A stretch of 43,792 nt of DNA from a virus. Location: IMG/VR virus record IMGVR_UViG_3300042987_001137, positions 1-43,792 of that record. One strand, given 5' to 3'. Position numbers and translations under genes: made by a program. The notes below the pieces were generated by a model. That model saw nothing but the letters and a program-made list of their open reading frames with translations, did not search any database and was not told the DNA's origin. This document shows, in pieces, positions 5,311-16,055 of this stretch (the stretch's first letter is position 1; every line of letters begins with the position of its first letter).

Positions 5311-5333
5311 GAAATATCCGGATTACTGATAAA

Positions 5334-5404
5334 GCTGAATGTCAGATTTGAACTGACGGCCGGCAGTTTACAAAACTGCTGCTCTACCACTGAGCTAATT
5401 CAGC
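5334..5404 (-). tRNA. tRNA-Thr (anticodon UGU)
   Basis: On the minus strand the 71 bases fold as a full cloverleaf. The acceptor is GCTGAAT paired with ATTCAGC, and the D arm contains the usual GG. The anticodon arm is GCAGT-TTTGTAA-ACTGC, giving anticodon UGU (reads ACA), and the T arm contains GTTCAAATC. It has no encoded CCA. Cyanophage tRNAs often serve codons that are commoner in the AT-rich phage than in a GC-rich host, and ACA fits that. Confidence 0.92.
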
Positions 5405-5408
5405 AATA

Positions 5409-5482
5409 TCGGAGTGGCAGGATTTGAACCTGCGGCCCATTGCTCCCAAAGCAATTGCGCTACCAAACTGCGCTACACCCCG
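5409..5482 (-). tRNA. tRNA-Pro (anticodon UGG)
   Basis: The minus strand gives a complete cloverleaf. The acceptor CGGGGTG pairs with CACTCCG (one G-U), the anticodon arm is ATTGC-TTTGGGA-GCAAT with anticodon UGG (reads CCA), and the T arm carries GTTCAAATC with discriminator A. It is four bases upstream of tRNA-Thr on the same strand, so the two are probably cut from one precursor, which may also include the oxygenase mRNA that ends 11 bases before. Confidence 0.93.
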
Positions 5483-5492
5483 AACTCAATGA

Positions 5493-14702: not shown

Positions 14703-14726
14703 CCCTGCCAAAAGGCGGGGTTTTTT
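14703..14726 (+). terminator. rho-independent terminator
   Basis: CCCTGCC (14703-14709) pairs with GGCGGGG (14714-14720) around AAAA, followed by T6. It ends the replication transcript after the glycosyltransferase gene. Confidence 0.92.
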
Positions 14727-15042
14727 ATTGCCTTGTCGGTCTCAATGTGAGACTAAAGTTGGAAACTTGTGGTGGGCTGAGGGGGAGGTGTGCAGACAAA
14801 ACCATGAATAGGATGAATTTCTCTTAGATAGTTAGAAAAATGACACTCGTGTTCTTGGGTTTATTCCTAGAAAAAAGTGAGATACCTGAGACAGGGGGGA
14901 AGGGGGGGCACTAAAACCATGAATGAAACCGTGAACACGAGTGTCATTTTTCTAACTATCTAAGTAAATTTAATCCTATTCACGGTTTTGCTCGCATCCC
15001 TGGTGCCTATTCACGGTTACATTTGTGGTTTCACCCCCAGGC
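14727..15042. other. candidate replication origin or cis element with iterons
   Basis: This non-coding stretch lies between a terminator and the HNH gene. A 13-mer of the form AACC(A/G)TGAATAGG occurs on the plus strand near 14800 and on the minus strand at 14975-14987 and 15007-15019. Two partial tandem copies (AAAACCATGAATG, AAACCGTGAACA) lie near 14913-14938. Together with the 58-bp inverted repeat, G-tracts (14780-14785, 14894-14908) and a small hairpin (GTCTCA/TGAGAC, 14739-14753), this has the layout of an iteron origin. It lies just after the primase-helicase block. Origin function is inference. Confidence 0.5.
14797..14990. repeat. long inverted repeat, near-perfect 58-bp arms
   Basis: The left arm 14797-14854 and right arm 14933-14990 are reverse complements. 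The inner 32 bp (14823-14854 with 14933-14964) are perfect, and the outer 26 bp match at 21 positions. The 78-bp spacer contains a G6-AA-G7 tract (14894-14908). There is no gene here. Arms this long could extrude as a cruciform or form a strong hairpin. Confidence 0.9.
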
Positions 15043-15399
15043 ATGTCCCGCCTCTACAAGCCCATGCCTCCCCTCTGGCGCATTGAGGAGCTGGTGCGGC
15101 TCTCCAGCAACTCACCATCAGCCCTGGAATGGTCCACCACGCGATACGGCCACAGGGAGGGCGAGCCCGCTGGGCGTCTCAACCGTCGCACAGGTTTCTA
15201 CACAATCTCTATCGACAACGAAAGTTACCTTGCTCATAGGATCGTGTTCTACCTACGAACTGGTTGCTTACCTGACAACCATGCCGTTGAACACCTTTAC
15301 GTCAACAAGGAAAAAGACAATCGACAGGAGTTGCGTGCAACCTATAAGGCACGTAAACCAAAAACAAAAACAACCACTGAAGACCTCCTGGACCTATGA
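15043..15399 (+). CDS. HNH endonuclease-like protein (118 aa)
   Basis: ATG 15043 is preferred over an in-frame GTG at 15025. The core HRIVFYLRTGCLPDNHAVEH followed by DNRQELR has the H-N spacing of phage HNH homing endonucleases; the usual D-H pair reads E-H here, so activity is uncertain. The tail is Lys/Thr-rich. The first ~140 bases of the gene are GC-rich and the rest is AT-rich, again suggesting a hybrid gene. It adjoins the inverted-repeat region, a typical homing site neighbourhood, and overlaps the next gene as ATGA. Confidence 0.6.
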   Translation: MSRLYKPMPPLWRIEELVRLSSNSPSALEWSTTRYGHREGEPAGRLNRRTGFYTISIDNESYLAHRIVFYLRTGCLPDNHAVEHLYVNKEKDNRQELRATYKARKPKTKTTTEDLLDL

Positions 15400-16055
15400 C
15401 CACAGAAACTGCTGTCTTTCGATATATCCACAATGTGGATTTGTTAGATGAGGATGCACTCCGAAAGGAAGGTTACTATCGCGGATACCCTTGTCCTCAT
15501 AACCATGTCATAAGAGATCTTGAAAAGCATTGGTGTTATCACTGCGCCATTAAAATCCAATCCAATATTTGCGGTTTTGATATCAACTATTTACACCCAC
15601 ACTACAAAACTAAGTATCACAAACTATGGTCTCAGGTTAATCCAGGGGGTCATGATGATTGCTGGGAGATTAATGCCCCTGGTAAACGAAACCCCAAACG
15701 TATCTGTATACCTTCCTATCGAGCTGCCTATAGCAATCAGCTATCGGAAAATGTAACAATCCACAAGGCATTGTATCAGTGTGCATGGGGGGACGTAGGG
15801 GCATTGCCTGTAACCAAACTCTGCAAGGATCCCTGGTGTGCTAATCCCATTCATATGACATCTGTTTTTAACCGATTGTATCCTCCGCAAAAGGTGCATC
15901 CGTTCACCACTGAATTTGATCCTCAAAAATTAATGTTGATTTCCAAGGCAAGAGATTTGGGCAAAGTTCAGGAAGTAATTCGTTCAGCCTATCGAGCAAC
16001 TATTGATCATCCTTTGAATGCAAAAGATCTCCCCTATTATGATGAAGGAGGGTAA
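15396..16055 (+). CDS. Cys/His-rich HNH-like phage protein (219 aa)
   Basis: The N-terminal half has GYPCPHNHVIRDLEKHWCYH with CxHxH and CxxC groups, then a conserved-looking aromatic block FDINYLHPHYKTKYHKLW. The C-terminal half has KLCKDPWCANPIHM, close to the 'C..CVNP.HL' part of HNH nucleases. Zinc binding is likely; nuclease activity is possible but not proven. I recall similar proteins as hypotheticals in marine cyanophages. It is coupled to the preceding HNH gene. Confidence 0.55.
   Translation: MTTETAVFRYIHNVDLLDEDALRKEGYYRGYPCPHNHVIRDLEKHWCYHCAIKIQSNICGFDINYLHPHYKTKYHKLWSQVNPGGHDDCWEINAPGKRNPKRICIPSYRAAYSNQLSENVTIHKALYQCAWGDVGALPVTKLCKDPWCANPIHMTSVFNRLYPPQKVHPFTTEFDPQKLMLISKARDLGKVQEVIRSAYRATIDHPLNAKDLPYYDEGG

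Follow-up and report, generated by a model that had tools for sequence, protein, structure and literature searches.

The stretch of DNA analysed here (the window) is the 43.8-kb record of an EIV1-like cyanophage, and it contains a conserved non-coding element in which short repeats are set within a long DNA palindrome directly upstream of the gene for an HNH-type protein, HNH1. The element is real, conserved DNA that is undescribed as far as the search tools could show. Its repeats are most likely the binding sites of HNH1, as suggested by one base of the repeat and one residue of the protein that change together, and the reading that we lean towards is that these sites act mainly as an autoregulatory operator of the HNH1-HNH2 operon.

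Synechococcus phage S-EIV1, with a PrimPol that is 61% identical, comes nearest among the isolates of the phage collection searched and is the single close isolate of the EIV1-like cyanophages there; 58 relatives were fetched from IMG/VR for comparison. Genes for a PrimPol-D5 primase-helicase, S-adenosylmethionine decarboxylase (SpeD) and a glycosyltransferase lie 5' of the element, and the HNH_3-type gene HNH1 (15043..15399, + strand) and a second endonuclease-like gene, HNH2 (15396..16055, + strand), lie 3' of it. The order glycosyltransferase, gap, HNH1 and HNH2 is kept in the relatives that cover this stretch with a gap of 257-843 bp; HNH1 is missing from L041, L042 and S-EIV1. A sequence-only reading of the window had placed the repeats 3' of the PrimPol/SpeD operon and beside an HNH gene; a conserved iteron-like cis element is indeed found there, and it is the link to the HNH gene that proved the important one. 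A DNA search with the element against 50,697 phage records gave no match, nor did a search of Rfam, which returned two tRNAs alone. Two adjacent tRNA genes, for tRNA-Thr (TGT) and tRNA-Pro (TGG), lie at positions 5333-5483 (- strand) of the window. Marine relatives (e.g. L018 8448-9047 and L037 14239-15079) have longer gaps with an apparent extra gene, cupin-like by eye, 5' of the element, and in L047 (10001-12637) the PrimPol gene aligned in three pieces, reflecting frame breaks or sequencing errors.

The palindrome spans positions 14786-15001 and is the strongest inverted repeat in the window, with a score of 53 against 14 for the runner-up. It forms a gapped stem with a left arm at 14786..14866 and a right arm at 14921..15001, each of 81 nt and 83% complementary, which are separated by a spacer of 54 nt and include a perfect 32-bp core (14823..14854 pairing with 14933-14964). 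The inverted repeat and its perfect core had both been recognised earlier, but the length then given, 58 bp, was too short. The G6-AA-G7 tract reported in the spacer is present in the loop at 14894..14908 (+ strand) and is no general feature among the relatives read. Folded as DNA, the palindrome region reaches -71.3 kcal/mol compared to -32.0 +/- 3.7 in shuffled sequences (z -10.5). Upstream of the palindrome an intrinsic-terminator-like hairpin with a T run (14703..14726, + strand; CCCTGCC-AAAA-GGCGGGG-TTTTTT) ends the PrimPol/SpeD/glycosyltransferase operon, and comparable hairpins are found at the same place in relatives. Between the two lies a second recurrent motif, the T dyad GTCTCAATGTGAGAC (14739..14753), of which HNH2 as the ligand would be a guess. 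A GTCTCA-n-TGAGAC dyad precedes the element in many freshwater relatives, with a similar one in S-EIV1, and a shorter variant is located in the loop of many relatives. S-EIV1 and relatives have a few more dyads of this type elsewhere, for example at -6005 from the element in G001 and G003, and the dyad may therefore represent a wider control site.

Among relatives the palindrome is common. In a stem search that scored every mismatch type alike, 31 of the 32 distinct elements reached scores of 38-108, compared to 18-28 in shuffles; the exception, L003, arises because its element exceeds the tested stretch, and its near-duplicate G005 has arms of 103 nt. In the wider set 14 of 59 elements score 34 or less and fall inside the shuffle range (highest 36), and the palindrome is therefore not universal. 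The element ranks first among the inverted repeats of the genome in S-EIV1, in five long relatives and in the window, with the top rank in S-EIV1 being a bare one (17 vs 16).

The repeats, termed R, were first described as several copies of the 13-mer AACC(A/G)TGAATAGG in both orientations, which is borne out by three exact copies at 14800 (+), 14975 (-) and 15006 (-), within the palindrome or just beyond it, and by two degenerate copies at 14913-14937. With up to two mismatches allowed the window contains seven matches where 1.8 are expected and where the maximum over 100 shuffles is six. R1 (AAAACCATGAATA, 14798..14810, + strand), a putative HNH1 site, is followed by R3 (AAAACCATGAATG, 14913..14925, + strand) with the degenerate copy GAAACCGTGAACA at 14925-14937, by R4 (AAAACCGTGAATA, 14977..14989, - strand) and by an extra copy in this window, R5 (GTAACCGTGAATA, 15008..15020, - strand). 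R4 and R5 are located 66 bp and 35 bp from the HNH1 ATG, respectively.

Comparison of the 13-mer across relatives, as had been proposed, revealed related repeats whose layout is kept in divergent genomes. Their elements contain up to four repeats in the arrangement R1(+) R2(-) R3(+) R4(-), with the consensus AAAAC-NNN-G/C-AAT-A/G and a centre typical of each phage group; R2 is a weaker copy ahead of the loop. Measured from the HNH1 start, R1 lies at about -176, R3 at about -82 and R4 at -11 to -14 in many genomes, and in most genomes R4 is directly 5' of the start codon. The likeness of the R centre is higher within than between genomes (R1-R3, p 0.003; R1-R4, p 0.002; permutation, 18 types). 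In the window and in four long genomes, copies with no more than one mismatch occur in the element alone, with the exception of one single-mismatch match in G003.

The assignment of these repeats to HNH1 comes from R base 9 and HNH1 residue 47, which covary. Asp47 is accompanied by C in 8 of 8 cases, Asn or His by G in 47, and Ile by T in one, while Glu occurs once with C and once with G. The pairings of Asp with C, of Asn or His with G and of Ile with T fit ordinary base readout. The covariation was spotted by eye in the alignment and the columns were scanned afterwards: over 1,957 columns of nine neighbouring proteins, HNH1-47 is the sole column that segregates with R base 9. When one broken genome is dropped, PrimPol is covered over 873 columns, none of which segregates; PrimPol was accordingly rejected as a reader of the repeats. 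The reduced scan has only four C-type genomes, and here the hypervariable columns HNH1-101 and HNH2-82 separate as well, which shows the level expected by chance. The pairing recurs in a hold-out of 29 new distinct elements from two further scans of the collection (N-G 22, H-G 3, D-C 2, E-C 1 and I-T 1). In about 14 genomes the R sites were picked manually, and among the new elements the automatic calls for L147 and L178, which had scored a chance site, were replaced by hand. By mutual information (MI) over 58 genomes, HNH1-47 explains 0.71 of the 0.74 bits at base 9 and ranks first among the HNH1 and HNH2 columns. On the HNH2 tree the two characters switch approximately 5-6 times, the related genomes being non-independent, and both differ even between near neighbours on it, for example L009 and L043. 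As the covariation also holds in the hold-out, the 13-mers are most likely HNH1-binding sites. Other pairings did not stand up: that of R base 10 with the 'GFY/GYY/GHY' position of HNH1, seen in L043, is not borne out by L123, and the pairs of base 5 with residue 59 and base 13 with residue 2 of HNH1, although the top MI pairs for those bases, follow the clades.

HNH1 is a 118 aa HNH_3-like protein with Asn at residue 47, whose start is most likely the ATG at 15043, where the relatives begin to align. It matches HNH_3 (weakly, in 17 of 21 members) and the PHROG HNH endonuclease, so that a descendant of the homing endonucleases is encoded directly 3' of the repeats. Its AlphaFold model (pLDDT 88) has I-HmuI as a first, weak structural match (E 0.54), and a search of solved structures by sequence gave a chance-level match for HNH1 and none for PrimPol. 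The residue that precedes the invariant H84 is Asp in only 1 of 59 sequences and the usual metal-ligand residues are missing. The HNH_3 pattern leads one to expect Asn after DNR, and HNH1 is without it (NL Asn). HNH2 (219 aa; pLDDT 84) resembles the zinc-loop His-Me finger protein I-PpoI, which is its first structural match, followed by SMAD MH1 domains, all of them weak; the same sequence and fold comparisons weakly favour I-PpoI over a T4 endonuclease VII type resolvase, and the latter was discarded. Arg or Lys occupies the position of the catalytic I-PpoI His98 in 57 of 59 sequences, and the H98A exchange in I-PpoI drastically lowers cleavage (PMC11325842). Neither protein thus conserves the catalytic His and metal ligands of an active HNH/His-Me nuclease, and with these key residues missing both are probably dead or poor nucleases.

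It is proposed that HNH1, a free-standing relative of the HNH homing endonucleases that probably no longer cleaves DNA, would bind the array R1-R4 (and R5 in the window) within the palindrome at its own promoter, and that the array would chiefly serve as an operator through which HNH1 represses HNH1-HNH2. The earlier statement that no gene explains the repeats would then no longer hold, since the neighbouring HNH1 gene very likely does. In a scan that applied the sigma-70 consensus to AT-rich phage DNA, forward-oriented promoter-like sites are concentrated at no more than about 50 bp from the HNH1 start, chiefly in the interval between R3 and R4, whereas reverse ones are spread. The window's own match is weak, its candidate -10 TAAATT between R3 and R4 (14965..14970, + strand) being of low confidence here and clearer in relatives. 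An autoregulatory operator is the simplest reading and finds its precedent in I-TevI, which represses itself by binding at its own promoter (PMC2988022).

Palindrome features are also present in four genomes that lack HNH1 (L041, S-EIV1, L144 and L158; stem score 72 in L144), and the element is therefore not solely an HNH1 operator. R-type repeats were sought in S-EIV1 and L041 and none were found. S-EIV1 has repeats of its own (AATCTTACATATCC; L061 10420-10690), with three copies in two orientations, the last just 5' of the HNH2 start. L144 and L158 share the same right arm about 200 nt 5' of HNH2 (start 2971) but a left arm that pairs with it is present in L144 alone (stem score 72 vs 28 in L158), which looks like arm replacement or template switching from arm to arm. 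The pairing of the arms outside the R sites could possibly reflect cruciform extrusion, template switching between the arms, or another protein bound there, HNH2 for instance.

The origin of replication suggested by the sequence-only reading is the alternative of most weight, though we hold it only tentatively. According to this model the element is an iteron-type origin where R binds HNH1 as an initiator or accessory factor, the A/T tracts that flank it on both sides melt, and the PrimPol-D5 helicase, whose gene lies about 1.8 kb upstream, is loaded, with HNH1 also repressing its own gene like plasmid Rep proteins do. It is in keeping with this model that several copies of a short repeat are present in non-coding DNA beside a replication operon, that their geometry is kept over divergent genomes, and that the top-ranked palindrome in each genome tested lies in one place near the PrimPol operon. 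Precedents are also available: F-plasmid RepE binds both iterons and an inverted-repeat operator 5' of its own gene (PMC13028717), the SaPI and putative SCCmec origins are located just 3' of a helicase gene (PMC7581432), and geminivirus iterons too vary with a domain of Rep (PMC10653810). Against it, about 14 of 59 elements have a weak stem, R covaries with no column of PrimPol, and the cumulative GC skew of six genomes does not point to the element. Whole-genome skew, the check that had been proposed, does not single out the element despite a genuine local flip near 15 kb of the window, and was set aside as evidence for an origin: neither extreme of cumulative skew coincides with the element in S-EIV1 or the five long relatives, and the detrended minimum lies 15-27 kb away, although skew in phages also tracks gene direction. 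The minimum is at a similar distance in G001-G005, approximately 15-20 kb upstream of the element (27 kb in S-EIV1), and this region is another candidate for the start of replication. Loss of the repeats in close relatives that replicate normally had also been named in advance as counting against an origin; R and HNH1 are gone from a few relatives, where the palindrome or traces of it are kept. The conserved iteron-like cis element stands, and its identification as an origin draws no support from the skew. The operator and origin readings can nevertheless both be true at once. A bolder form, in which a free-standing relative of the HNH homing endonucleases has been domesticated across a widespread lineage of cyanophages as a nuclease-dead iteron reader with a one-residue/one-base switch, and acts as a replication-initiation or copy-control factor at an origin, is rated lower still.

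The remaining explanations are improbable to differing degrees. A transcribed structured RNA of the HNH operon, be it a leader, an attenuator or a small RNA, would suit the position directly before the HNH1 start codon, the strong RNA fold (z -10.1) and the long stems common among relatives, yet it is improbable. Selection at the RNA level should leave more G.U pairs than A.C mismatches on the transcribed strand, and the sense strand shows 106 G.U vs 145 A.C in 32 elements and 176 vs 211 in 59 (with kinship among the sequences), which gives no sign of wobble-tolerant pairing there. Nor would a structured RNA predict that R1 and R3, which have the same orientation and do not pair with each other, should agree, or that base 9 should covary with a protein residue, and Rfam holds no match. 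An antisense RNA is possible. Long inverted arms beside genes that descend from homing endonucleases could also be the footprint of a foldback or MITE-like mobile element, or a homing site cut by HNH1 or HNH2, but we regard this as slightly less probable again. The element occupies the same intergenic place in dozens of relatives as a single copy per genome, which led to the mobile element being dismissed, and no empty-site relative with an intact HNH1 was seen. Genomes with HNH1 retain and multiply the R sites, which covary with a protein whose catalytic residues are apparently lost, and this runs counter to the proposal of a target protected from homing. Lastly, the element may be thought of as a packaging end, hairpin telomere or resolution site of the virion genome, since long palindromes can mark genome ends and do so in N15-type telomeres. 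This proposal, made at the outset for a resolution or packaging site, is very unlikely: contigs run across the element and their ends are scattered rather than falling at the site, G002 is apparently circular (123-bp end overlap), the terminase gene of S-EIV1 is about 46 kb away, and the arms are mismatched and separated by a loop.

If the proposed operator is correct, these phages would provide a natural series where the specificity of an HNH-fold protein and that of its DNA site have switched together several times through one residue and one base. The rules of the switch (Asp-C, Asn or His-G and perhaps Ile-T) would make recognition by the HNH fold directly testable. The series would also outline how, in phages, a homing endonuclease can turn into a regulator or a replication factor, and the element would be the first candidate control site for EIV1-like cyanophages.

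Parts of this arrangement are reminiscent of several known systems. As in the F plasmid, an array of short repeats and inverted copies lies directly 5' of the gene of the presumed binding protein (PMC13028717), but the F plasmid Rep is a winged-helix initiator with tandem iterons, whereas HNH1 is an HNH-type protein whose initiator role would be hypothetical and the repeats are far apart (94 and 69 bp). Geminiviruses and nanoviruses likewise have repeats that differ from virus to virus, lie near a stem-loop and vary in step with one part of the protein that binds them, the iteron-related domain of Rep (PMC10653810); these small ssDNA viruses use rolling-circle origins and a Rep that nicks, and no homology is claimed. 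The SaPI and SCCmec origins share the repeats and inverted repeats 3' of a replicative helicase/primase operon (PMC7581432), but there the helicase binds the repeats, while here PrimPol does not covary with R and two genes lie between. The SMAD MH1 domain has been called a degraded homing endonuclease (Grishin 2001, cited in PMC4999995) and would by that account likewise be a His-Me finger that has lost catalysis and become a DNA-binding domain, and it is a weak structural match to HNH2; it belongs to a eukaryotic transcription factor and no close kinship to HNH2 is shown. The I-TevI operator of phage T4 also involves a phage endonuclease-family protein with a binding site, putative in the present case, at its own promoter (PMC2988022). 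I-TevI, a GIY-YIG enzyme, is active and has a single operator, which is located within an intron, whereas HNH1 is a free-standing and probably dead protein of the HNH fold with at least four sites in a palindrome, and it is present in nearly all relatives.
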